This document shows, piece by piece, positions 32,962 to 54,967 of a stretch of 59,684 nucleotides of DNA. Within the stretch, counting starts at the first letter, position 1. Each line of letters opens with the position of its first letter. Source of the stretch: a virus. The DNA lies in IMG/VR virus record IMGVR_UViG_3300030451_000571, positions 1-59,684 of that record. The stretch is one strand, 5' to 3'. Under the pieces are notes generated by a model. That model was not told the origin of the DNA. It did no database searches and saw only the letters and a list, made by a program, of their open reading frames with translations. Made by a program: the position numbers and the translations under genes.

Positions 32962-34518
32962 ATGGAATTAGAAGAAATACAAGATGTAGTAGAATCTGGT
33001 GGCTATTTAGACCATCAGACACTAGATAAAGCACTAGATAAATATATTCAGGAAAAATCAAAGGAAGATTTCCTTACATTTGTACGCAGAGTAGCTCCAA
33101 CCCTAGTAACTGACTTCAAGATGGGGCGGCATATCGAGCTATTGTGCGACAGATTGCAGAAAGTAGCCGATGGTGAGATAAAAAGATTGATGGTCTTCCT
33201 GCCACCACGCTCAAGTAAGTCGCTTATTACCAGTAAAATCTTTCCTGCGTGGTATATTGGCCGTGAACCGAACCATGAGATTATGTCTGTGTCACACAGT
33301 GACCAGCTTGCCAGTGACTTTGGCCGTTCTGTCCGTGATATTGTAAACACGGAAGACTTCCAGCGTGTGTTCAAGGGTGTGTCCCTGCGGTCAGACGTTA
33401 AGGCAGCAGGTAAATGGAAAACAAACCACAATGGCTCCTACTATGCTGCGGGTGTGCGGTCACAGATTGCAGGTCGTGGTGCGCATCTAGCTTTGCTGGA
33501 TGACGTTATGTCAGAAGAAGACAGCTTCAGCGACTCAGGCCGCAGATACATCAAGGAGTGGTGGCCTTCTGGTCTGCGTACCCGCCTGATGCCGAATGGC
33601 AGTATTATTATTATTAACACACGCTACCACTTTGATGACCTGTGTGGCTGGTTGCTCAAGCAAGAGTCAGAGTTTACCACAGAGCCATGGGAAGTAATCA
33701 GCATTCCTGCATGGCTAGACGAAACTGCAGCAGACCTGCTAGGGTTGCCCGAAGGTACATCATACTTTCCAGAGTGGAAGCCAGATGAAGTATTGAAGCT
33801 GGACGAGCAAGAGATACGAGCAAGTAACGGGAGTAGATACTGGGATGCGCTATACATGCAAAACCCATCGCCAGACGAAGGTGGGATTATTAAAAAGAAT
33901 TGGTTTCAGTGGTGGGAGTACGAAGACCCGCCGCACTGCGAGTTTATCATTCAAACGTATGACACGGCCTTCTCTACTAAAAAAACGGCAGACTATAGTG
34001 TCATCCAAACCTGGGGCATCTTTCACCAAGTCGAGCAAGATGAGTACGGCGGAGAGTATGTCGTACCTAATCTCATCCTTCTTGGGAATATCAAAGACCG
34101 CTTCGAGTATCCTGACCTTCGCAGAACGGCTCAAATGCTGTACCAAAAACACAAGCCAGATGTGTGCATTATCGAGAAGAAAGCTTCTGGACAATCGCTC
34201 CTCCAAGATATGCGACTCGCTGGGCTTCCAGTTCTTGACTACCTACCTGACAGGGACAAGGTATCACGTGTCTATGCCGCCACCCCTCTTATGGAGTCGG
34301 GTCGTATATACATTCCCACGGGTAAAGAGTGGGCAAAGGATTTATTCGATGAATGCCTAGCATTTCCCAATGGCGCACACGATGACCAGGTGGACGCAAT
34401 GACTATGGCTATCCATTATATGCGGGACAGCTGGCATGTGTCACACAATGAAGACCCTAGCTGGGAAGACGATTATAATCCCCGTAGAACAAAGAGGGTT
34501 GGATACTGGAGAACTTAG
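32962..34518 (+). CDS. terL: Terminase large subunit
   Basis: This protein has 518 residues. The N-terminal ATPase has a Walker-A-like MVFLPPRSSKSLITSKIFPAWYIG, Walker B HLALLDDVMSEEDS and coupling SIIIINTRYHFDDLCGWL. The C-terminal RNase-H-type nuclease has QTYDTAFS, CIIEKKASGQSLLQDMR and HDDQVDAMTMAIHYM, with the acidic metal ligands. It drives packaging and cuts the concatemer. It is the first gene of the late arm; its small-subunit partner is at 9218-9673 on the other strand. It has no obvious SD close to the ATG. Confidence 0.95.
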   Translation: MELEEIQDVVESGGYLDHQTLDKALDKYIQEKSKEDFLTFVRRVAPTLVTDFKMGRHIELLCDRLQKVADGEIKRLMVFLPPRSSKSLITSKIFPAWYIGREPNHEIMSVSHSDQLASDFGRSVRDIVNTEDFQRVFKGVSLRSDVKAAGKWKTNHNGSYYAAGVRSQIAGRGAHLALLDDVMSEEDSFSDSGRRYIKEWWPSGLRTRLMPNGSIIIINTRYHFDDLCGWLLKQESEFTTEPWEVISIPAWLDETAADLLGLPEGTSYFPEWKPDEVLKLDEQEIRASNGSRYWDALYMQNPSPDEGGIIKKNWFQWWEYEDPPHCEFIIQTYDTAFSTKKTADYSVIQTWGIFHQVEQDEYGGEYVVPNLILLGNIKDRFEYPDLRRTAQMLYQKHKPDVCIIEKKASGQSLLQDMRLAGLPVLDYLPDRDKVSRVYAATPLMESGRIYIPTGKEWAKDLFDECLAFPNGAHDDQVDAMTMAIHYMRDSWHVSHNEDPSWEDDYNPRRTKRVGYWRT

Positions 34519-34781: not shown

Positions 34782-35177
34782 ATGGCTGAATTTAAAATTA
34801 ATCTTCCTACAGCAAAATCTTTACATAACTCCATATCAAAAGAATTTAAAGACTCTTTTGAAAAAAAAGCAATGGATGCAGGACCATCAGTAGGTATGGG
34901 ATTATTTGGAAAAAATGCAGCCCAGCAAAGAGTTAAATTTAAAAAAGCTCAAAATAAATTAAGAGCAGTAGTAAGAGAAAATAAAAAAAGAATAAAAGAT
35001 TCTAATTTATCTGTTGAGCAAAAAAAAGTAAAAGATAAACAGCTTATAGAAAATGCAACAAAAATTGACAAACAAATGATGGAAATGTTTGGATTGAAAA
35101 AAAGTCCAACAAAAAAAGCTATTGGTGGTAAAGTGTCCACCAAGAAAAAACAAACTGGTCACAATAGACTTTATTAG
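34782..35177 (+). CDS. Small basic A+T-rich protein with C-terminal HNRLY tag
   Basis: This 131-residue protein is Lys-rich and helical (FKKAQNKLRAVVRENKKRIK) and ends KKAIGGKVSTKKKQTGHNRLY. The final HNRLY and the preceding GGK-rich tail match three other small late proteins (43178, 43642, 44592). Codon choice is A+T-rich with many AGA Arg codons. It sits between terminase and portal. It is probably a minor virion protein; function unknown. Confidence 0.7.
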   Translation: MAEFKINLPTAKSLHNSISKEFKDSFEKKAMDAGPSVGMGLFGKNAAQQRVKFKKAQNKLRAVVRENKKRIKDSNLSVEQKKVKDKQLIENATKIDKQMMEMFGLKKSPTKKAIGGKVSTKKKQTGHNRLY

Positions 35178-35185
35178 GAATAGAT

Positions 35186-37684
35186 ATGGCAACAGAGAGA
35201 AATCCTTATGAGCAACGCCCAGAGGGTGATAATGTTATTCGCATGGAAATGCAGCAACCCTCCGAAACGGAAGCAACCTTTGAGTTAGACCCAGAGACAG
35301 GCGAGATTACTGTAGACCTTGAAGGGTCAGCAGAGTCAATCGAAGTAGAGGTTAACATGAACTCAGGATTCTACGAGAACCTTGTAGACATCTTAGACGA
35401 AGATAAGCTTGAAGAGATTGGACACACAGTTATTGACAAGTTTGAAGCAGACAAAGATTCTCGTGCAGAGTGGGAATCAATGTTTGAGCGTGGCTTTGAC
35501 CTGCTTGGTCTGAAACTAGAAGATACGACTGAACCATTTGAAGGTGCAGCTACTGCTGTTCATCCACTGTTGATTGAGTCGGCAGTTAAGTTTCAATCCA
35601 AAGCTTCACAAGAATTGTTTCCTGCTAAAGGACCAGTCAAAGCACAGGTTCTTGGTGATGCAACATTAGAAAGGCAACAGCAAGCCAATCGTGTACAGAA
35701 CTTTATGAACTATCAGGTAACTACTCAGATGCCTGAATATTTCGATGAGTTTGAGCGTATGCTGTTTCATCTGCCGCTGATTGGTTCTGCTGTTAAGAAG
35801 ATTTATTATGATTCAAGTCTTGACCGACCCGTTAGTGAGTTCGTACCTATTGACCAGTTTTATGTGTCTTACTATGCGTCTGACCTTCGTAGAGCAGACC
35901 GTTACACTCATGTTATTTACCGCAGCCCTGTCGATTTATCTCGCCAGATAGAAGCAGGAATGTATGCCGACATGGAACTTCCTGATGCAGGTGTCCCTAC
36001 TTTGTCAGGCATGGCAGAAAAGATGGACACAGTTCTTGGTCTGTCACCCGCAGGAGATAATGACCCGCAGTATGTGTTGCTGGAACAGCACTGTTACCTA
36101 GAACTTGAAGAAGATAAGATGCACAAAGGCAAGACTGCCTGCCCATATATTGTAACTGTAGAACAGCAGTCGGGTCAGGTGCTTTCGATTCGCCGTAACT
36201 GGTCAGAAGGAGATGACAAGTATGTTAAGAAAATGCACTTCACTCATTATCGCTACGTACCAGGCTTCGGTTTCTATGGTCTGGGTCTTATTCACTTCCT
36301 TGGTAACCTTACTATGTCTGCTACCGCTGCTATGCGCAGCTTGCTTGATGCTGGTCAGTTCGCTAACCTCCCTGGTGGCTTCAAAGCTAAAGGCGTGCGT
36401 ATGGTGGGTGACAACGACCCTATTGCGCCTGGGGAATTTAAAGAAGTAGAAGCAACAGGCATGGACTTGTCTAAGTCTATTATTCCGTTGCCGTTCAAAG
36501 AACCTTCACAAACTTTGTTCAACATGCTGTCCTTTGTGACAGGAGCAGGTCAGAAGTTTGCCGACAGCACAGAGCAAGTCATTGCAGACAGCGGCGGCTA
36601 TGGTCCAGTCGGTACAACAATGGCTTTGCTCGAAGCCTCAAGCAAATTCTTCTCTGCTATTCACAAGCGGCTGCACAAAGCACAGGGTGACGAGTTCAAA
36701 GTATTGGCACGTGTTAACCACGAGTCATTGCCTGGAGAATATCCGTATGACCTTCCAGGTGTAAGCGAAAAAGTATTCAAGTCAGACTTTGATGGTCGTG
36801 TAGATATTATTCCAGTATCTGACCCGAACATTCCATCTAACGCACAGCGCATGATGCTTGTTCAAATGGTACAGCAAATTGCTGCTCAGTCAGAACCAGG
36901 AATGTTCGACATGGAAGCAATTAACAGAATGTTGCTGACCACTGCCAATGTTCCTGATGTTGAAAAACTTATGCCTTTCAAAGAAGAAGCTCAACCTCTT
37001 GACCCGATGTCAGATATTTTGGCAGCAGCAGAAGGCAAGCCTATCAAAGCATTTGAAGGGCAAAACCATGAAGCTCACATTGCAGTAAAAACTGCCTATC
37101 TTCAAGACCCTAAAAATCAACAGAATCCAGTATTCCAAAAATTAGCTGGAGCTTTATCTTCTAATATTTCTGAACACATGATGGTTCAATATAAAGAGCA
37201 GATGATGGGTCTGTACAATACTGCATTGCAGAATCCAGAAACACTTGGTCAAATCGCACTTGACCCTTCAGTCATTGAACGGGTACAGGCACAAGCCGCC
37301 CAGCAGATTTTGCAGGCTAATGCCGCAGCTGCTCAAGGTCCAATGACACCTGAACAACAGATGCTACAAATTGAAGCACAGAAACTTCAGGTAGAACAAA
37401 ATAAAACTGCTGCACAGATTGCCAAAGCACAGGCAGATGCAGCACTTAAAAATCGTGACCTTGACTTGAAAGAACAGAAGATTGTTCTCGATACGCAAGC
37501 CAAAGGAGCGCAGGAACAAATGAAAGCTTACCAGAAGCAAGAAGACAGAGATGCCAAGCGTGCATTGAAAGCTATGGACGTACTGGCCGACTTGCTGAAA
37601 GCCCAAGAAAATAATGACTTGGAAGAAGCTAAAGTTTCTGCTAAACTATTGGCAGACGTAATCAAGCAACAAGGCATTGAATAA
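35186..37684 (+). CDS. Portal protein
   Basis: This 832-residue protein has a large acidic N-terminus, then WESMFERGFDLLGLKLEDTTEPFEGAATAVHPLLIESAVKFQSK, the conserved opening of marine podovirus/P22-like portals. The core includes FERMLFHLPLIGSAVKKIYYD and GFGFYGLGLIHFLGNLTMSATAAMRSLLDAGQFANLPGG. The C-terminal 150 residues are Gln/Ala/Lys-rich coiled coil (QMLQIEAQKLQVEQNKTAAQ), expected for the barrel. It forms the dodecameric DNA entry ring. The length is that of large P22-type portals with a C-terminal barrel. Confidence 0.9.
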   Translation: MATERNPYEQRPEGDNVIRMEMQQPSETEATFELDPETGEITVDLEGSAESIEVEVNMNSGFYENLVDILDEDKLEEIGHTVIDKFEADKDSRAEWESMFERGFDLLGLKLEDTTEPFEGAATAVHPLLIESAVKFQSKASQELFPAKGPVKAQVLGDATLERQQQANRVQNFMNYQVTTQMPEYFDEFERMLFHLPLIGSAVKKIYYDSSLDRPVSEFVPIDQFYVSYYASDLRRADRYTHVIYRSPVDLSRQIEAGMYADMELPDAGVPTLSGMAEKMDTVLGLSPAGDNDPQYVLLEQHCYLELEEDKMHKGKTACPYIVTVEQQSGQVLSIRRNWSEGDDKYVKKMHFTHYRYVPGFGFYGLGLIHFLGNLTMSATAAMRSLLDAGQFANLPGGFKAKGVRMVGDNDPIAPGEFKEVEATGMDLSKSIIPLPFKEPSQTLFNMLSFVTGAGQKFADSTEQVIADSGGYGPVGTTMALLEASSKFFSAIHKRLHKAQGDEFKVLARVNHESLPGEYPYDLPGVSEKVFKSDFDGRVDIIPVSDPNIPSNAQRMMLVQMVQQIAAQSEPGMFDMEAINRMLLTTANVPDVEKLMPFKEEAQPLDPMSDILAAAEGKPIKAFEGQNHEAHIAVKTAYLQDPKNQQNPVFQKLAGALSSNISEHMMVQYKEQMMGLYNTALQNPETLGQIALDPSVIERVQAQAAQQILQANAAAAQGPMTPEQQMLQIEAQKLQVEQNKTAAQIAKAQADAALKNRDLDLKEQKIVLDTQAKGAQEQMKAYQKQEDRDAKRALKAMDVLADLLKAQENNDLEEAKVSAKLLADVIKQQGIE

Positions 37685-37685
37685 A

Positions 37686-38321
37686 ATGTTAGGAAGACTT
37701 TTATCAGAAGGTTTAAAAGCTACAGCAAAGCAATCATCTAAAAAAAGTAAAAATTTAGATGATATTAAAAATATTAAACTTAATAAAACAGAAGCTGAAA
37801 TTGTAGAATCTTCTCCAAATTCATTGAAAAATTTATTTGATAAAGATATTGATTATGTTGTAGATACATTTGAAAATTCTGGTATATATACTTCCCTTAA
37901 AGAAAATCCTACTAAAATTAAAAAAGGAACTACAGATAATTTTAAAAATAAAATATATTTACAAACTCAAGAAAGTTTAAAAGACCAGCCCAATAAAATG
38001 ATTGTCTATAGGCATGGAAAATTAGACCCTGGAATAAATGTAAATAAAAATGAACCACTTTCTTTTACTCTTTCTCCATTTAGGGGAGAATTACCTGGCG
38101 GTAAAAAAGCAGATTTAAAAAATTTTGAAGCTTATGAAGTAAATAAAAAAGATATATTAGCTAATTATGAAAAGATAGTTCCAAATTATTCTAAAAGAGG
38201 AACATCAAATGAAAGAGAAGTTTTAATTTTTCCAGAAAATGTAAAACCTATTGAAGGATTTTTTAAAGGTGGTAGGGTTGAAAAAAACCCATATGGAATT
38301 AATTATCAAAAAATGATATAA
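37686..38321 (+). CDS. Putative ADP-ribosyltransferase-like virion protein
   Basis: This is 211 residues from an ATG one base after the portal stop (an in-frame TTG lies nine bases earlier). It is very A+T-rich and Lys/Asn-rich compared with the portal gene. The second half shows an R-S-E arrangement: IVYRHG (Arg about 109), LSFTLSP (Ser-Phe-Thr about 126-128) and NEREVLIF (Glu-x-Glu about 176-178), as in mono-ADP-ribosyltransferases. It ends FFKGGRVEKNPYG, a basic tail like other late proteins here. If the motif is real, it could be carried in the head like T4 Alt and modify host proteins. The fold is not proven. Confidence 0.5.
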   Translation: MLGRLLSEGLKATAKQSSKKSKNLDDIKNIKLNKTEAEIVESSPNSLKNLFDKDIDYVVDTFENSGIYTSLKENPTKIKKGTTDNFKNKIYLQTQESLKDQPNKMIVYRHGKLDPGINVNKNEPLSFTLSPFRGELPGGKKADLKNFEAYEVNKKDILANYEKIVPNYSKRGTSNEREVLIFPENVKPIEGFFKGGRVEKNPYGINYQKMI

Positions 38322-38504
38322 ATGTTATACGAAGAGTTAGTAAAAGAAATACAAAAAGAAATTGAGTCTATAAAAAATTCGCTTGCGTATGGAGCCGCTT
38401 CGGATTATTCTAGATACTGTGAATCAGTGGGAACAATCGCTGGTTTAGAAAAGGCCGTAGGTCTTATCAAAGATTATCTGAATAAATATATCGAAGAGGA
38501 GTAA
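38322..38504 (+). CDS. Small conserved phage protein
   Basis: This is a 60-residue helical protein (MLYEELVKEIQKEIESIKNS...) with SDYSRYCESVGTIAGLEKAVGLI further on. It resembles short proteins found beside portal genes in marine phages. It starts directly after the preceding stop. Function is unknown. Confidence 0.65.
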   Translation: MLYEELVKEIQKEIESIKNSLAYGAASDYSRYCESVGTIAGLEKAVGLIKDYLNKYIEEE

Positions 38505-38506
38505 AT

Positions 38507-38914
38507 ATGCAAGCTGCATCTAGTGCTTTGAAAAACGATGAATGGATTACAGACGAGGATATTGCAGACCCAAATCCGCTTCCAGGAATCCCTGGATACC
38601 ATATCCTTGTTCGTCCAGTATCAGTTAAGTCAGCAACTAAGGGTGGTATCCTTTTGCCTGACTCAACCAAATCGGACATGGCTTACCTTACAACAGTTGG
38701 CCGTGTTCTAAAAGTTGGCGACCTAGCTTATAAAGACGAGAAGTTTGCCAATGGACCTTGGTGTAAAGAAGGTGACTTTGTGTGTTATGGAAAGCATACG
38801 GGAAGCAAGTTCTTTTACAAGGGCATAAATCTTTTGCTATTGTTTGATGATGACATCAAGATGGTGGTCGAAGATGCAAAAGACTTAGACCCTACATTTA
38901 ATCTAAGCAATTAA
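38507..38914 (+). CDS. GroES-like co-chaperonin
   Basis: This is a 135-residue protein. PGYHILVRPVSVKSATKGGILLPDSTKSDMAYLTTVGRVLKVGD corresponds to the GroES start (D-hhV---.---.T.GGI.LP.....-..--G.V..VG.G). WCKEGDFVCYGKHTGSKFFYKGINLLLLFDDDI matches the second half (VGD.V.f....G..-.-.g..hhhh...DI). The GGILLP loop is the likely GroEL-binding mobile loop. Its place between portal and scaffold suggests it helps host GroEL fold the capsid protein, as T4 gp31 does. It has N-terminal and C-terminal additions. Confidence 0.75.
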   Translation: MQAASSALKNDEWITDEDIADPNPLPGIPGYHILVRPVSVKSATKGGILLPDSTKSDMAYLTTVGRVLKVGDLAYKDEKFANGPWCKEGDFVCYGKHTGSKFFYKGINLLLLFDDDIKMVVEDAKDLDPTFNLSN

Positions 38915-38917
38915 AAA

Positions 38918-38941
38918 AATTCACAGCTACCCTTGTGAATT
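38918..38941. promoter_or_regulatory. Hairpin over the -35 of a late promoter
   Basis: AATTCACA (38918-38925) and TGTGAATT (38934-38941) form a perfect 8-bp stem. On the minus strand it is followed by a short U-run, so it could also end antisense transcripts; on the plus strand no U-run follows. Confidence 0.45.
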
Positions 38942-38961
38942 AAACAATCATACTATATAAT
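38933..38961 (+). promoter_or_regulatory. Late promoter before scaffold and capsid
   Basis: TTGTGA (38933-38938), a 17-base spacer and TATAAT (38956-38961) lie upstream of a 50-base leader with SD AGGAG before the ATG at 39020. Confidence 0.6.
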
Positions 38962-39019
38962 ATTATGTATCGGCGTTATTCGTCTATTTCGCCGCAGACG
39001 TTAAACAGGAGAAAATACT

Positions 39020-40048
39020 ATGGCAGAGACTGAATGGTCTACCATCGAACCAGGCTCACCCCCTGAACAAGAAAAGGTGGAATTTGAAATCGAAGGGCAA
39101 GAAGCCGCAGAAGTAGAAGCCCCCGAAGCAGAAGTAGAAACTAAAGCCGAAGAGCAACAGCCTGAAGCAAAAGTGGAAGCCGAAGCACCCCAAGAAGAAA
39201 CTACCCCTACAATTGAAGAAGAGCAAGAAAAAGAAACAAAGGGTGTAGAAACATCTGGCGCTCAAAAACGCATTCGACAACTGGTAAAACAGAAAAAAGA
39301 ACGTGAAGCTGAAATTGAAAACCTTCTGGCACAACAGAAGGAAATGCAAACCAAGCTTCAACAGAGAGAAGAAGAATACAAGAATCTCTTAAATAATAAT
39401 GTTGAATCTAACGAGCGTCAAGTGACGGAACGTTTAGAGCTTGCTCGTGCTGCGTACCGTCAAGCCGTAGAAAGCGGCGATGCCGATAATATCTTGAAGG
39501 CACAAGAATCTCTTAATACTGCCCAGCAAGATAACTATAGGCTGACAGAGTTTCGCCAGCAGGCCGACTCTTTTGAACCTCAAACATTTGAGGAGCAACA
39601 ACAAGCTCAAACTGCTAATGTGTCAGAGGCACAGCGCAAAGCAACAGATTGGGCAGCAGCAAATGACTGGTTTAATAGTGACCGTGTAATGACTGCAGTT
39701 GCTCTAGAGATTGATACTCAGGTTCAGGAAGAAGGGTTTGACCCAGCTGACGATGATTATTACGAAGAAATTGACCGCCGCATGGCAGAACAATTTCCAA
39801 AAAAGTTTGGACAAGTCACCGAAGAAGTGGCAACCGAAAACCCCGTAGCGCAGGAAACGTCAACACCTGCTCAAGTGGTCGCAGGAGCTTCGCACACTCC
39901 AGCACCTTCATCAAGTAAAAAGGTAAAGCTCTCACAAGAAGATGTACGCCTTGCAGAAAAATGGGGCATATCACTTGAACAGTATGCAGCCGAAAAGCTA
40001 AAAGTCGAAAAGGCAGGCGAAGGCGAGTATACTACCATTAACAGATAG
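39020..40048 (+). CDS. Scaffolding protein
   Basis: This 342-residue protein is strongly acidic in the first 80 residues (long Glu/Ala runs), then has a Lys/Glu/Gln coiled coil (KRIRQLVKQKKEREAEIENL...) and helical sequence to a basic C-terminus. Composition, coiled coil and position two genes before the coat protein are typical of podovirus scaffolds, which are removed during head maturation. SD AGGAG is present. Confidence 0.8.
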   Translation: MAETEWSTIEPGSPPEQEKVEFEIEGQEAAEVEAPEAEVETKAEEQQPEAKVEAEAPQEETTPTIEEEQEKETKGVETSGAQKRIRQLVKQKKEREAEIENLLAQQKEMQTKLQQREEEYKNLLNNNVESNERQVTERLELARAAYRQAVESGDADNILKAQESLNTAQQDNYRLTEFRQQADSFEPQTFEEQQQAQTANVSEAQRKATDWAAANDWFNSDRVMTAVALEIDTQVQEEGFDPADDDYYEEIDRRMAEQFPKKFGQVTEEVATENPVAQETSTPAQVVAGASHTPAPSSSKKVKLSQEDVRLAEKWGISLEQYAAEKLKVEKAGEGEYTTINR

Positions 40049-40068
40049 TTGCGAAAGGATATACACTT

Positions 40069-40557
40069 ATGGCACGAAATACCACACGTAGCACCCAGAG
40101 TCGTGAACTGGAAACAAGAGAAGCCGAAGACTTTGAATATCGTGAACCGAATCTTTTGGATATTCCCGAATCAGTAACCGCAAGGTTTGAAGACCAAGGA
40201 ATGAAACTTCGTTGGATACGTACAACCCTAAAAGGTGGTGACGATTATACAAATGTTGGGAAAAGAATGGCCGAAGGCTGGGAGTTCGTTTCTCTTGAAG
40301 AAGTACCTGAACTAGCGCACACCTCTGCAATTAGAGAGGAAGGTCGCTACAAAGGCACTGTATGTCGAGGAGATTTGGCGCTTGCTAAGTTGCCAATTAA
40401 ACGTGCAGAAGCTCGACAACGACATTTTGAAAACGCATCTGCAGAGATGGTTGATGCTGTCAATGCACAGCTTGAAAACTCATCAGACCGCAGAATGCCA
40501 ATTCAAAATCAAAGTAGAACCAATGTAACTAAGGGTCGCACCCCTTCTTTTGATTAA
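40069..40557 (+). CDS. Conserved head-module protein, unknown function
   Basis: This 162-residue protein has SD AAGGA. The core MKLRWIRTTLKGGDDYTNVGKRMAEGWEFVSLEEVPE has a pattern I know from marine phage head modules, placed next to scaffold and coat genes. Function is not known. The C-terminus is polar and basic. Confidence 0.7.
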   Translation: MARNTTRSTQSRELETREAEDFEYREPNLLDIPESVTARFEDQGMKLRWIRTTLKGGDDYTNVGKRMAEGWEFVSLEEVPELAHTSAIREEGRYKGTVCRGDLALAKLPIKRAEARQRHFENASAEMVDAVNAQLENSSDRRMPIQNQSRTNVTKGRTPSFD

Positions 40558-40606
40558 AAGGGTGGCGAAGTCTGGTTACAGAATTTAAACACTGAAGGAG
40601 AAAAAT

Positions 40607-41194
40607 ATGTCTGCTACTAAAGTAACTGGACTTCAGCCTTCCCGTGTTCGTGGTGCTGCACCAAATAGTAACGGCCTGAATGAATATCCTATTGCTTCAG
40701 GCGCTACGGCAATGTACACAGGTACGCCTGTGCGTATTGCCTCTGGTACGCTTACACCGTGCGTAACGACTACCGAAGTACCCGTTGGTATTTTCCAAGG
40801 TTGCCGTTATGTAGAAGATGGGGAACAAAAATTTAAATCTTACTATTCTGGCGTGTCTGCTTCAGACATCGTTGGTTTGGTAAATGACAATCCTGGTCAA
40901 ACTTACATCATTTCTTCAAATGCTACGGTTGCCGCTGGCATCGTGGGAAGAAACGTAGAAGTTAGCTCAATTGCTGGTGGCTCTACCTTTACTGGTAAGT
41001 CAACCATTGTTGCTAAAACGACTGCTGGTACAACTGGTAAAGCCACCAATGGTGCTTTGCGTGTTATTGCTATCGTTGATGAGCCTGGTAATGCAGTTGG
41101 TGATGCTTTCACGAAAATGGAAGTTGAATTTAACCATCAAGCTGCTGATTATCAGAATGTTCTGACTTCAGCCGTTGTGACCACAACCAACTAA
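40607..41194 (+). CDS. Putative capsid decoration or minor head protein
   Basis: This 195-residue protein has SD AAGGAG. It is Gly/Thr/Val-rich beta sequence (GATAMYTGTPVRIASGTLTP, VPVGIFQGCRYVE) ending in EVEFNHQAADYQNVL. It lies immediately before the major capsid gene, the usual place for head decoration proteins. No definite family was assigned. Confidence 0.65.
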   Translation: MSATKVTGLQPSRVRGAAPNSNGLNEYPIASGATAMYTGTPVRIASGTLTPCVTTTEVPVGIFQGCRYVEDGEQKFKSYYSGVSASDIVGLVNDNPGQTYIISSNATVAAGIVGRNVEVSSIAGGSTFTGKSTIVAKTTAGTTGKATNGALRVIAIVDEPGNAVGDAFTKMEVEFNHQAADYQNVLTSAVVTTTN

Positions 41195-41209
41195 GGGAGA
41201 TAAATAATA

Positions 41210-42130
41210 ATGGCTATTAATAGAGCAAGTATTGCAAAAGAGCTACTCCCTGGTCTTAACGCCGTATTCGGCCTTGAGTATGGGGAAGTTGCTGACGAAC
41301 ATGCACCGTTGTTTGACGTTGAAAACTCAGACCGTGCATTTGAAGAAGAGGTTCTCTTCACTGGCTTCGGCACTGCACCTGTTAAAGGTGAAGGCGCTGC
41401 CGTATCTTATGACGATGCCCAAGAAAGCTACACCTCACGCTATACGCATGAGACAATCGCTCTTGGCTTCGCCGTTACGGAAGAAGCTATGGAGGATAAC
41501 CTCTATGACACATTCGCTAAACTGCGTGCCAAAGGTTTGGCTCGTGCTATGGCGAACACTAAACAAGTTAAAGCTGCTGATGTTTTCAACAACGGTTTTA
41601 ACTCCTCCTTTGCTGGTGGTGACGGACAAGCTTTCTTTTCCGCTTCACACCCCACCATTGGTGCTGGCGACCAAAGCAATGCCTTGGCTGCTTCTGACCT
41701 TTCAGAAGCCGCTTTGGAAACTGCATTGATTGCTATTTCTAAAACTAAAGATGACCGTGGCATCCTGATTGGTGCGCAAGCTGAAAGCCTGCACATCCCG
41801 TCAGACCTGGCCTTCACTGCAGACCAGATTCTGAACTCGCCGCTGTCAACCACGATTGCTAACTCTGCTACCAATGTCAACGACATTAACAGCATTCGCA
41901 ATCAAGGTCTTGTCCCGAATGGCTTCTACGTGAATCGCCGTTTCACGGACACGAATGGTTACTTCATTAAGACTGATGTGCCGAATGGTGCGAAAATGTT
42001 CGTCCGTTCACCGCTTCAGACTAAAATGGAGCCTGACTTCGACACTGGCAACCTGCGCTTTAAAGCTCGTGAGCGTTATGCGTTTGGTTTCAGTGACTGG
42101 CGTGGTTTCTACGGAAGCCAAGGTGCTTAA
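41210..42130 (+). CDS. Major capsid protein
   Basis: This is a 306-residue protein. LLPGLNAVFGLEYGEVADEHA, then ETIALGFAVTEEAMEDNLYDTFAKLRAKGLARAM, FFSASHPTIGAG, and the C-terminal MFVRSPLQTKMEPDFDTGNLRFKARERYAFGFSDWRGFYGS follow the layout of Mu gpT-like HK97-fold coat proteins (N-arm, E-loop, P and A domains). It lies downstream of the scaffold and a decoration-like gene and is followed by a strong terminator. Base composition is more G+C-rich than neighbouring small genes, as often seen for highly expressed coat genes. Confidence 0.9.
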   Translation: MAINRASIAKELLPGLNAVFGLEYGEVADEHAPLFDVENSDRAFEEEVLFTGFGTAPVKGEGAAVSYDDAQESYTSRYTHETIALGFAVTEEAMEDNLYDTFAKLRAKGLARAMANTKQVKAADVFNNGFNSSFAGGDGQAFFSASHPTIGAGDQSNALAASDLSEAALETALIAISKTKDDRGILIGAQAESLHIPSDLAFTADQILNSPLSTTIANSATNVNDINSIRNQGLVPNGFYVNRRFTDTNGYFIKTDVPNGAKMFVRSPLQTKMEPDFDTGNLRFKARERYAFGFSDWRGFYGSQGA

Positions 42131-42158
42131 TTAAAACACCTATTAGCTAACCTTTGAA

Positions 42159-42190
42159 GGGGGTGGGACTTGTATCTCACCCCCTTTTTT
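42159..42190 (+). terminator. Rho-independent terminator after the capsid gene
   Basis: A 10-bp stem (GGGGGTGGGA / TCTCACCCCC, one G-U pair) with a 6-base loop is followed by TTTTTT (42185-42190). It should end the coat transcript. Confidence 0.9.
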
Positions 42191-42198
42191 AGTATAAT
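42170..42198 (+). promoter_or_regulatory. Late promoter overlapping the capsid terminator
   Basis: TTGTAT (42170-42175), a 17-base spacer and TATAAT (42193-42198) restart transcription immediately after the terminator, in front of the gene at 42230 (SD AGGAG). Confidence 0.6.
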
Positions 42199-42229
42199 AT
42201 AGCTATTGACATTTTTATAGGAGCAATCA

Positions 42230-42535
42230 ATGACTAATATTAGAACAGCATTTGTTTCTGGGACTGGTACTTTTGTAGACGCATATTCAAGTGTGACGGT
42301 AGCAAATACTCGTGTTCGTGCTATTAACATAGCACCTGCCTCTCAAAACGGACGAGGACAAGTTATTATTACAGGAACAACTACAACACCTTTCGGAGAA
42401 ACTGTAGGCAATAGAATTAAATTAGCAGTAAATGATAGATTATATTTTTCACTTCCAGATAACGGAGTAAGATTCCCTGGCAAGATTATTGTATCTGCTG
42501 CTGGTTCAATTGCTACAACTATTTACTATGGCTAA
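42230..42535 (+). CDS. Small structural-type protein, unknown function
   Basis: This 101-residue beta-type protein (VANTRVRAINIAPASQNGRG; GKIIVSAAGSIATTIYYG) has SD AGGAG. It is related in size and style to the protein at 48488-48817. It is probably a minor head or decoration protein, judged from position. Confidence 0.6.
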   Translation: MTNIRTAFVSGTGTFVDAYSSVTVANTRVRAINIAPASQNGRGQVIITGTTTTPFGETVGNRIKLAVNDRLYFSLPDNGVRFPGKIIVSAAGSIATTIYYG

Positions 42536-43178
42536 TTATACTTATCTTGTTACCGACATTATCGAGGCTACCGAAAATGATGGCAGCGAATTTGTTTCGG
42601 CTATTCCAAAAATGGTTAATCGTGTAGAAGAACGACTAACTAAAACATTGGACGATTATGGTTTGGTAACAACTACAACAGTTACACTATCAGCAGGCAA
42701 GAACAGCCTTACACTTCCTTCGGAAACACGATATGTAAAGAATCTTCGCATTGAAGATAGTGGCACTAAAATTAATCTGCTACAGAGAACAGATGAGTTT
42801 ATTTATGACTACTGGCCTGTCAGCGCAAGTACAGGAACTCCAAAGTATTATGCAAAGAAAACAAACACAGATGTTATCATTGCTCCTACTGCAAGCGCTA
42901 CTTACAGCGGGGAACTTGTATATGTCGCTAGACCGACTACACTAACCAGTGTAAATCAAACTAACTACTTCTCTGATTTTTGCTATGACGCTTTGTTTTA
43001 TGGCTGCATGGTAGAGGCAGGAGATTTTATGAAAAACTTTTCAGTAAGTAATTATTATGAACAGCGTTATCAAAACGCAATTGAAGCATTAAGAAATCAA
43101 GCACGTAGAACACGGCGTGATGATATGGAAGCACCTGGCTCTATGGCAGGAGAAAATACATTAGGAGGAACACAATAA
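42528..43178 (+). CDS. Head-tail adaptor protein (T7 gp11/SU10-adaptor-like)
   Basis: This is 216 residues from the ATG (MANYTYLVTDIIEAT), which overlaps the upstream stop by 8 bases. FVSAIPKMVNRVEERLTKTLD, then LPSETRYVKNLRI, FIYDYWPVSASTGTPKYYAK and LVYVARPTTLTS, is the pattern of phage adaptor proteins that ring the portal. The C-terminal helix is basic (ALRNQARRTRRDD). A second, gp4-like head-completion protein is encoded at 45402. Confidence 0.75.
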   Translation: MANYTYLVTDIIEATENDGSEFVSAIPKMVNRVEERLTKTLDDYGLVTTTTVTLSAGKNSLTLPSETRYVKNLRIEDSGTKINLLQRTDEFIYDYWPVSASTGTPKYYAKKTNTDVIIAPTASATYSGELVYVARPTTLTSVNQTNYFSDFCYDALFYGCMVEAGDFMKNFSVSNYYEQRYQNAIEALRNQARRTRRDDMEAPGSMAGENTLGGTQ

Positions 43179-43627
43179 TGGCTACAGGTAAACTTATTGC
43201 AGGTATTATAAAGGCTGCAAAAAGCCAAGGCAGACAACCTAATTTTGGTGCTGCCAAAGCAAAACTAGAAAAAAAAGTTCGTGAAGGAACTGCAACAAAA
43301 GAAGACAAAGAACTTTTAAAAGAGTTGAAGAAAAAAGATGCCGAAGCAACGAAATCTCAAAAAGTAAAACAGTCTCAATCAAGTCGTAAAACTCCTGTTT
43401 CTTTAGCAGGTTCTAAAAAAGTTGGTGGTACGCAAAAAAAGGGTGGCGGTAAAATGAAAAGCAAAGGTTACAAAGGCGGCGGCAAAATGAAAAGCAAAGG
43501 CTATGCAGCTGGTGGCAAAATGAAAACTAAAGGTTATGCAGCTGGCGGTAAAATGAAAACCAAGGGCTATAGGGCTGGCGGTAAATTAAATAAAAAAGGT
43601 GGCGCACCACATAATCGTTTATATTAA
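43178..43627 (+). CDS. Basic repeat protein with C-terminal HNRLY tag
   Basis: This 149-residue protein is Lys-rich throughout. The C-terminal third has tandem copies of GGKMKSKGYKG / GGKMKTKGYAA and ends GGAPHNRLY. Tail repeats come from a 33-base DNA unit. The net charge is very positive. Repeats of this kind occur in marine phage late genes; a DNA-binding role inside the head is plausible but unproven. It starts one base inside the upstream stop. Confidence 0.7.
   Translation: MATGKLIAGIIKAAKSQGRQPNFGAAKAKLEKKVREGTATKEDKELLKELKKKDAEATKSQKVKQSQSSRKTPVSLAGSKKVGGTQKKGGGKMKSKGYKGGGKMKSKGYAAGGKMKTKGYAAGGKMKTKGYRAGGKLNKKGGAPHNRLY
43445..43600 (+). repeat. 33-base tandem repeat inside a late gene
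   Basis: About four and a half copies of a 33-base unit encode (A/K)GGKMK(S/T)KGY. Copy boundaries fall at GGT/GGC codons 43448, 43481, 43514, 43547 and 43580. Copies differ at third positions, so the amino acids are kept. Confidence 0.85.
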
Positions 43628-43641
43628 AGGAACTGTAAATA

Positions 43642-44142
43642 ATGGCTAAATCAGTACAAGAAATGACAATTGCTGAACTAAAGCAAGTGTTAAAAGATAA
43701 TCAAGAAATTATCAATGCAGGATTAAGACGGTCAAGTAAAGGCAGTTACATGAGAACTCCTGTAGGAAAAAACGCCCAAGCACGTTTTGATAGAGCCGCA
43801 AAAGAATTAGCAAAGAGACAAGGAAGAACTACTAGAACTATTGATGAGGTTGTTCGTCCTATAGATAGAAGTCCTAAAGCACAGCGTGAGCGTACGATTC
43901 GTGCCAGAAAAAAACCTATTGGTGGTGCAGCTGCTACACGTAGGGCAGCGCCGCCTTTAAGAGTATCTCCTGTTGTAAAAAAAGCAGCGCCTGTTAAAAC
44001 TGCCAAACCTACTAAACCCGCAGAACCTAAAGCAAAACCAAAGAAAAAAATGAAGGTTGGTAAACCTGGTTATAATCGTAGAACTATAACTAAAAATACT
44101 GGCGGTAAAGTAAGCGGCGCACCTCATAATCGTTTGTATTAA
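43642..44142 (+). CDS. Basic protein with C-terminal HNRLY tag
   Basis: This is a 166-residue protein with a helical N-terminus (MAKSVQEMTIAELKQVLKDN), a basic middle and a long Lys/Pro/Ala linker like a histone H1 tail (PVVKKAAPVKTAKPTKPAEP), ending GGKVSGAPHNRLY. It shares the final residues with three other late proteins. It may bind DNA or sit in the virion. Confidence 0.7.
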   Translation: MAKSVQEMTIAELKQVLKDNQEIINAGLRRSSKGSYMRTPVGKNAQARFDRAAKELAKRQGRTTRTIDEVVRPIDRSPKAQRERTIRARKKPIGGAAATRRAAPPLRVSPVVKKAAPVKTAKPTKPAEPKAKPKKKMKVGKPGYNRRTITKNTGGKVSGAPHNRLY

Positions 44143-44166
44143 TATATTTGAAAGGGTATTAAGATA

Positions 44167-44583
44167 ATGAAAAAAGTACCAGAAGATAACCCAGGTCTTG
44201 CAAAGCTTCCTAAAAAAGTTCGCAATCGTATGGGATACCTTGATAAAGGAAGGCGTGTAAAAGAAGCAAGCACACGTGGCACACCTGCACAAGGTCAGCG
44301 TGCTTATGAATCTGAAAAAGCTCAGATGGAAGACTTTAAAAAACATATGGCCTATATTGAGTCACAGCTTTCTGATAATCGTGGGGGTAAAAAAAAAGTA
44401 AATAAAAGTGGCGGTAGCCGTGTTAATGAGGCAGGCAACTACACAAAACCTGGTATGCGTAAAAGATTATTTGAAAGCATTAAGGCAGGTGGAAAGGGCG
44501 GAAAGCCTGGTCAGTGGTCAGCAAGAAAAGCTCAAATGCTGGCGAAGCGTTACAAAGAAAAAGGTGGGGGCTACAAATCGTAG
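44167..44583 (+). CDS. Basic phage protein with KPGQWSARKAQ motif (DUF5872-like)
   Basis: This is a 138-residue protein. YTKPGMRKRLFESIKAGGKG, then GKPGQWSARKAQMLAKRYKEKGGGYKS, at the C-terminus is a strongly conserved block that I know from short basic proteins in marine phages and some other viruses (I believe classed as DUF5872). Function is unknown. It is the first of four neighbouring basic genes with related motifs. Confidence 0.75.
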   Translation: MKKVPEDNPGLAKLPKKVRNRMGYLDKGRRVKEASTRGTPAQGQRAYESEKAQMEDFKKHMAYIESQLSDNRGGKKKVNKSGGSRVNEAGNYTKPGMRKRLFESIKAGGKGGKPGQWSARKAQMLAKRYKEKGGGYKS

Positions 44584-44591
44584 TATGATAT

Positions 44592-44876
44592 ATGGCAAAA
44601 TCAAAATCTCAAAAGTCTCTCGACAGCTGGACAAAGCAAAAGTGGAGAACTAAGAGTGGCAAGAAGTCGAGCGAAACTGGCGAAAGGTATTTACCAGAGG
44701 CGGCTATTAAGGCACTCACCCCAGCAGAGTATGCGGCTACATCGAGAGCAAAAAGAAAAGGAAGCAAACAAGGAAAGCAATTCGTTAAGCAGCCTAAAAC
44801 TATAGCAAAGAAAACTGCTAAGTTTCGCAAGGCAGCAAAAGGCGGTAAAATTTCAGGACATAACAGGTTATACTAA
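44592..44876 (+). CDS. Basic phage protein, KSLDSWTKQKWRT type, with HNRLY tag
   Basis: This is a 94-residue protein. KSLDSWTKQKWRTKSGKKSS, then RYLPEAAIKALTPAEYAATSRAKRKGSKQGKQFVKQPKTIAKK, is a conserved block seen with the neighbouring gene's family. The C-terminus is AAKGGKISGHNRLY. It is very basic and has no cysteines. Its stop shares a base with the next ATG. Confidence 0.75.
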   Translation: MAKSKSQKSLDSWTKQKWRTKSGKKSSETGERYLPEAAIKALTPAEYAATSRAKRKGSKQGKQFVKQPKTIAKKTAKFRKAAKGGKISGHNRLY

Positions 44877-45232
44877 TGGCACTGACAGACGCAGAAAAAA
44901 ATAAACTAAAGAAACTGGGATTATCTGGTTTGAATAAACCTAAGAGAACTCCTAATCATCCAAGCAAAAAGGCCGTAGTGGCCGTGAGGGGAGACAATGG
45001 AAAAGTTAAAGTCATTCGGTTTGGCGCTCAAGGAATGGGTCACAACTACAGCCCAGAAGCTCGTAAAAACTTTAAAGCAAGGCACGGAAAGAACATTGCT
45101 AAAGGCAAGACTTCAGCTGCTTACTGGGCTAATAAAGTCTTTTGGGCAGGTAAGTCTGGCAGTAAAAAGCGGCCTCCTAAAAGTCAAAAACAGACTTTTG
45201 GTCTTGGTCGCAAGAACAGAAAAAAAACTTAA
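44876..45232 (+). CDS. Basic phage protein, GKVKVIRFGAQGMG type
   Basis: This 118-residue protein has HPSKKAVVAVRGDNGKVKVIRFGAQGMGHNYSPEARKNFKARHGKN followed by IAKGKTSAAYWANKVFW. This pattern recurs in cyanophages and other marine viruses next to the two preceding families. It is highly basic. It may be a nucleic-acid-binding virion component. Confidence 0.75.
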   Translation: MALTDAEKNKLKKLGLSGLNKPKRTPNHPSKKAVVAVRGDNGKVKVIRFGAQGMGHNYSPEARKNFKARHGKNIAKGKTSAAYWANKVFWAGKSGSKKRPPKSQKQTFGLGRKNRKKT

Positions 45233-52182: not shown

Positions 52183-52359
52183 ATGAGTGAAATGACATTT
52201 ACATCGGCTCAATATGTCAACGTCCTTAACAACCAAATAATAAAAGTGGTTGTTGATGGTGTTGAACTATCTATTCCTCCCGTTGCTGGCAATCGCCACT
52301 ATGACGAAATCATGCGACAAGTAGAGGCAGGAACTCTAACAATACAGGAAGCAGACTAA
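52183..52359 (+). CDS. Small AGNRHYDEI protein, copy 1
   Basis: This 58-residue protein has MTFTSAQYVN, then ELSIPPVAGNRHYDEIMRQVEAGTLTIQEAD. It is paralogous to the 60-residue protein at 54785. It overlaps the next fibre ATG by one base. It may be a fibre assembly chaperone. Confidence 0.65.
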   Translation: MSEMTFTSAQYVNVLNNQIIKVVVDGVELSIPPVAGNRHYDEIMRQVEAGTLTIQEAD

Positions 52360-54784: not shown

Positions 54785-54967
54785 ATGGAAAATATGAACA
54801 TTACATCAGCACAATATGTTTCTTCGGAAGAAGAGTCAAATAGTTTTATTGAATGTATGATAGAAGGAAAAAGATATGTTGTGCCGTGCGTTGCTGGCAA
54901 CCGTCACTACGATGAAATTGTAAGCCAAGTAGAAGCTGGAACACTTACAATTGCAGACGCAGACTAG
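54785..54967 (+). CDS. Small AGNRHYDEI protein, copy 2
   Basis: This 60-residue protein has NITSAQYVSSEEE, then VVPCVAGNRHYDEIVSQVEAGTLTIADAD, paralogous to the protein at 52183. Each copy follows an NLIINGAM-type gene. Confidence 0.7.
   Translation: MENMNITSAQYVSSEEESNSFIECMIEGKRYVVPCVAGNRHYDEIVSQVEAGTLTIADAD

Follow-up and report, generated by a model that had tools for sequence, protein, structure and literature searches.

A shared C-terminal peptide, HNRLY, on unrelated small basic late proteins of one phage capsid clade: a probable docking tag

Four open reading frames of the window (the whole stretch of DNA analyzed here, a viral record of 59,684 bases) end in the same five residues, HNRLY, which is far above chance. 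The peptide is very probably a docking tag of some kind that operates at the level of the protein. That it serves to load basic proteins into the phage head is the use that we, on balance, favor; partner, encapsidation and delivery are what we infer for it. For the majority of small late genes in abundant marine phages, no function is known. A selected C-terminal label would single out a defined set of such genes that act through one partner, and would supply both a sequence rule for finding more of them and a prediction, open to test, on the cargo of virions. Should HNRLY prove to load heads, it would be the C-terminal equivalent, five residues long, of the phage T4 capsid-targeting sequence (CTS), and a handle for placing chosen proteins in phage heads.

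The tagged genes and their setting

Each of the four ORFs (genes A, B, C and E of Table 1) ends in HNRLY followed by a stop codon where the first-pass annotation had placed it, and the codons that specify the pentapeptide differ among the four genes exactly as listed there. Its description of the proteins also holds: all four have a GGK-type linker, and the bodies are unlike one another, segment-masked pairs yielding no significant similarity (lowest E-value 0.68). A search of all six frames of the window finds no further HNRLY. When the residues of the 88 gene-like ORFs were shuffled within each protein, at most two ORFs shared a last pentapeptide in any of 20,000 shuffles. The four tagged proteins have isoelectric points of 10.3-11.6 and a Lys+Arg content of 25-29%. 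Pfam returns nothing reliable for genes A, D, E and F (A and E have no domain above the cut-off), and a sequence search of the PDB returned nothing useful.

Table 1. Late-module features of the window
Feature	Position	Strand	HNRLY codons	Description
TerL	32962-34518			~40% identity to pelagiphages HTVC023P and HTVC027P
Gene A	34782..35177	+	35160-35174	131 aa basic protein in the TerL-portal gap
Portal protein	35186..37684	+		phrog_1216 match; candidate tag partner
Post-portal gene	37677..38321	+		second tag class in the window, GGRVEKNPYGINYQKMI (ERNPY class)
Acidic scaffold-like protein	39020..40048	+		putative, from composition and position, with no Pfam match above the curated cut-off; candidate partner
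Major capsid protein	41210..42130	+		tag limited to its clade; candidate partner
Virion structural (adaptor-like) protein	42489-43178			late module
Gene B	43178..43627	+	43610-43624	149 aa; GGKMKSKGY repeats, then GGAPHNRLY
Gene C	43642..44142	+	44125-44139	166 aa; GGKVSGAPHNRLY
Gene D	44167..44583	+		phrog_17747; co-linear neighbor without tag
Gene E	44592..44876	+	44859-44873	94 aa; phrog_14910 body and disordered 13-aa tail, end GGKISGHNRLY
Gene F	44876..45232	+		phrog_7595; neighbor without tag; weaker match to phrog_220 (minor head protein and DNA pilot)

Tagged genes occupy slots in the TerL-portal gap, 3' of the adaptor-like gene, and next to lysozyme, where large internal-protein-like genes precede them. 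Several features of this region are recorded for their own sake. The tag of gene B is preceded by tandem GGKMKSKGYAA repeats that are also found, with a different tag, in loci L011 and L012. In Aphanizomenon phage CL131 the gene F domain lies within a gene with a portal annotation, and in two Vibrio phages within Peptidase_S78_2 proteins. The head module also encodes a GroES-like co-chaperonin (window 38507-38914, phrog_3188) that is kept in relatives.

The tag in related phages

Approximately 340 loci were assembled from IMG/VR by searches with the portal, the capsid protein and gene E, together with two DNA-pattern scans. Their ORFs, comprising 1.95 million residues, contain HNR[LI]Y 205 times at a C-terminus and not once internally (duplicate loci counted), and on the late strand in all 196 cases in which that strand can be told. 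Removal of duplicates leaves 112 distinct tagged proteins, with a median length of 97 aa (maximum 247 aa) and a median pI of 10.8; every one of them has a pI of at least 9.8. BLAST of the bodies sorts them into ~17 families, an approximate count that more sensitive methods could merge or split (107 distinct proteins were available at clustering, and 112 once loci had been added). The His is preceded by Gly, Pro, Thr or Ser, and the basic linker varies freely across families while HNR[LI]Y stays fixed; the rare variants are HNRIY, PNRLY (in three capsid relatives) and HNSLY (in one).

The tag is specified by 35 distinct 15-nucleotide encodings. The pattern scans are biased toward HNRLY, but the 29 proteins that were obtained independently of the tag pattern have the same residues, in 19 encodings. 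Synonymous codon turnover, recurrence on ~17 body families and exclusively C-terminal placement strongly support what the first-pass annotation had proposed from four genes, that selection acts on the peptide and that a recent DNA copy is not responsible. The codon differences rule out recent copying of the tag as DNA. The tag pattern is found in 86 stretches of the viral collection, as against one for a reversed control of equal degeneracy. The species genomes of bacteria and archaea (84,980) contain 6 matches, compared with ~7 by chance (our estimate, for equal base frequencies); mimicry of a host peptide was considered and is rejected on this chance-level count.

The distribution of the tag follows the capsid. 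In a capsid-protein tree of 61 loci, all of which cover the downstream genes, 33 rows form one supported clade (96/87), of which 27 have the tag (PNRLY included), whereas the other 28 rows all lack it; none of 500 shuffles was as clustered on this tree. Scans of whole contigs (41 records) find 1-3 tags per tagged contig, all on a single strand (the built-in control gave 0), and none on the long contigs outside the capsid clade; absence from short fragments is uninformative. A few members of the clade have no tag (the 56-kb contig of locus L056 is an example), and the tag is therefore not essential everywhere. Six cultured relatives, searched in their entirety, do not have it, and tblastn of short tail queries against isolates gave no match, although queries of this length hardly reach significance. 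Absence of the tag from relatives, which would have told against the first-pass annotation, is not what is seen: relatives have the ending, although often on other genes.

A graft on existing bodies

To judge from homologous sequences that end differently, the HNRLY tag is a graft on pre-existing bodies. The body of gene E is a clear member of phrog_14910, a family of small basic phage proteins that are in part DUF5872-like: its residues 1-80 match positions 1-80 of the 80-position profile (E 1.6e-37). Whereas most phrog_14910 members stop near residue 80-82 and have no tag, gene E extends beyond this point, and its homologs in the clade share ~80 residues followed by a tail that ends in HNRLY or HNRIY. 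An AlphaFold model of gene E is mostly confident for residues 1-81, with pLDDT below 50 for the tail (82-94). Foldseek with this model finds no PDB match at E <0.001, and its BFVD matches are unnamed viral proteins only.

Genes B and C provide the complementary case of bodies kept while the tag changes. Over 119 body columns the gene B protein is 73% identical to its homolog in L004, which ends in GVGCAKGGYGKAMK instead of HNRLY; the N-terminal ~52 aa of gene C are common to proteins of L015 and L017 that end in GVGCAKSGYGKAMK, of the GYGKAMK type. The alternative tag on the parts homologous to genes B and C in these near relatives is RGxGxAxRGYGKAMK. Bodies and tags thus assort independently.

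Other shared C-terminal tags

Two points are absent from the first-pass annotation: HNRLY is one among several shared C-terminal tags in related phages, and the window itself has a second tag class (37677-38321). A search for C-terminal octapeptides common to unrelated late ORFs, in which the weaker clusters include spurious ORFs, ranks HNRLY first (16 families), and further yields RADGxAxRGKTRG (12), RGxGxAxRGYGKAMK and its forms (10 and 7), DNRKKK (8), ERNPYNYEPKGI / ERNPYGxNYQKLI (6 and 4) and GGQVVDSSYD (4). A GG-containing linker precedes most of these named tags. Sister lineages of the HNRLY clade have other shared C-terminal tags, some with a [KR][LIM]Y end; outside the HNRLY class, 13 of 15 such ends follow a GG linker, compared with 0 of 8 for permuted residue orders, in a post hoc comparison of small numbers in which some of the 15 are PNRLY variants. 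Two or more tag classes within one genome would imply more than one partner or site.

In relatives, an ERNPY-type end marks the post-portal slot on several unrelated bodies, and the slot looks like an effector slot. Its occupants (window 37677-38321 and loci L054, L057, L062, L069, L072, L291, L323 and L335) have a partly common N-terminal segment and unrelated middles. For the L054 protein, Pfam gives a match to PF25735 that is below threshold (E 1.4e-5). A single-sequence AlphaFold model of the protein of the window is poor (mean pLDDT 41); by eye it gives an impression of an ADP-ribosyltransferase, an assignment that we do not claim.

These observations suggest a wider scheme, which we put forward tentatively as a possibility: aquatic podovirus-like phages might share a general code in which C-terminal tags are exchangeable and specific to lineages (HNR[LI]Y, RGxGxAxRGYGKAMK, ERNPYGxNYQKLI, RADGxAxRGKTRG, DNRKKK and GGQVVDSSYD), often two or more to a genome, each with its own site in the assembling head, such that almost any small protein could be made into virion cargo by the addition of a tail.

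Proposed docking and head loading, and the alternatives

The suggestion that HNRLY is a C-terminal address or docking site is strongly supported by its presence on ~17 body families, its C-terminal exclusivity, the tag swaps on homologous bodies and its limitation to one clade; a strictly terminal and clade-specific peptide that keeps its invariant residues while moving among unrelated basic proteins points to a docking tag for a conserved component of the phage. In the mechanism that we propose, HNR[LI]Y-COOH would be a docking peptide at the end of a Gly/Lys tail that is flexible and positively charged, and the small, basic, late-expressed proteins that bear it would form a changing set. One conserved assembly component (the major capsid protein, the scaffold or the portal) would bind the free C-terminus during head assembly, and the tagged proteins would thereby enter the particle. 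Inside it, their bodies, rich in Lys and Arg, could bind the packaged genome and would be passed on to the next host. If loading depends on the tag alone, as is proposed, bodies could be swapped with the tag kept, and lineages could drift to different tags. Loading into the head is plausible by virtue of gene position, basic charge and the T4 precedent, and would be the most economical use of the tag: these are late genes amid head genes, their basic bodies resemble DNA-associated internal proteins, the tag tracks a capsid clade, and the logic is that of T4. Counted against head loading are the tagged genes that also adjoin lysis genes, the capsid-clade members without the tag, and the coexistence of more than one tag class in a genome. 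Neither a tagged isolate nor a virion proteome of a tagged phage turned up in the sources searched; the cyanophage proteome examined is of a distant T4-like phage, and is uninformative.

The docking tag might instead serve a partner that is no part of the head, such as a chaperone for assembly, a lysis or membrane complex, or a host factor working on these proteins in the course of infection. One tagged family does lie directly 3' of the lysozyme gene, restriction to a clade is equally expected if the phage clade tracks the host, and the families of genes E and F exist in many phages without any tag, so that their basic job is independent of it. We nevertheless consider such a partner rather unlikely: tags recur beside the TerL, portal and capsid genes, the lineage-specific tag types shift with the structural module, and the bacterial genomes, at chance level, give no sign of mimicry. 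It is improbable that a separate partner is dispensed with altogether, the tag making the basic proteins associate mutually or with DNA and so condense the genome; every tagged protein is indeed strongly basic, but nonspecific DNA binding calls neither for a free carboxylate nor for a strictly terminal pentapeptide in which four residues are invariant, and variation in these proteins is tolerated in the basic linker and not in HNR[LI]Y.

That the ending is a stability cap, shielding unstructured basic tails from C-terminal proteases of the host, would fit with the predicted disorder of the tail and with the hydrophobic or aromatic ends of several related tails; it is made decidedly improbable by the fixed H, N and R across 112 proteins, which protection would not require, and by the untagged and differently tagged homologs in closely related phages. 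A nucleotide-level signal, or recent gene conversion of 3' ends, has the shared segment at the gene ends as its sole support and, with synonymous codons differing at every position, can scarcely be credited.

Comparison with known systems

Encapsulin cargo is directed to a shell of HK97 fold by a loading peptide that sits at the C-terminus on a flexible linker. HNRLY is likened to this peptide by layout: both lie at the C-terminus of several proteins after a flexible linker (judged here from the low pLDDT of the gene E tail and the variable linkers), while the shell in the present case is the capsid of a DNA phage, in which the partner is only a candidate. The T4 CTS is N-terminal and is cleaved off by the prohead protease, and the encapsidation of proteins that carry it is established. 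Like HNRLY, it is one short peptide on otherwise unrelated proteins of the same phage; it differs in position, HNRLY always being C-terminal, and in that head loading by HNRLY is proposed where encapsidation in T4 is demonstrated. The internal proteins of T4 are diverse, fast-changing small bodies that have only the capsid-targeting sequence in common (PMC3012670).

The polyvalent proteins of Iyer et al. (2017), found mostly in portal-terminase phages, are predicted to be packaged in the virion and injected, as is proposed for the HNRLY cargo, and are multidomain, with 2-15 domains (PMC5512222). HNRLY proteins are, in contrast, single small basic bodies in place of several disparate domains; the polyvalent class may have closer kin in the ERNPY-tagged post-portal proteins. 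The phrase 'C-terminal motif' does not occur in the text of PMC5512222, and a literature search of open-licence papers for shared C-terminal tags or motifs on such phage virion proteins yielded nothing relevant. The principle of a cargo tag is known; what seems new is the sequence, its placement at the C-terminus and the set of tags that differs by lineage.

Two further sets of shared ends were seen. Up to four unrelated small proteins per contig end in RADGxAxRGKTRGxxx in L249, L255, L257 and L258. In the window, two short ORFs amid tail-fibre-like genes (52183-52359 and 54785-54967) have a long end in common, GNRHYDEI..QVEAGTLTI..AD, and are probably paralogs.
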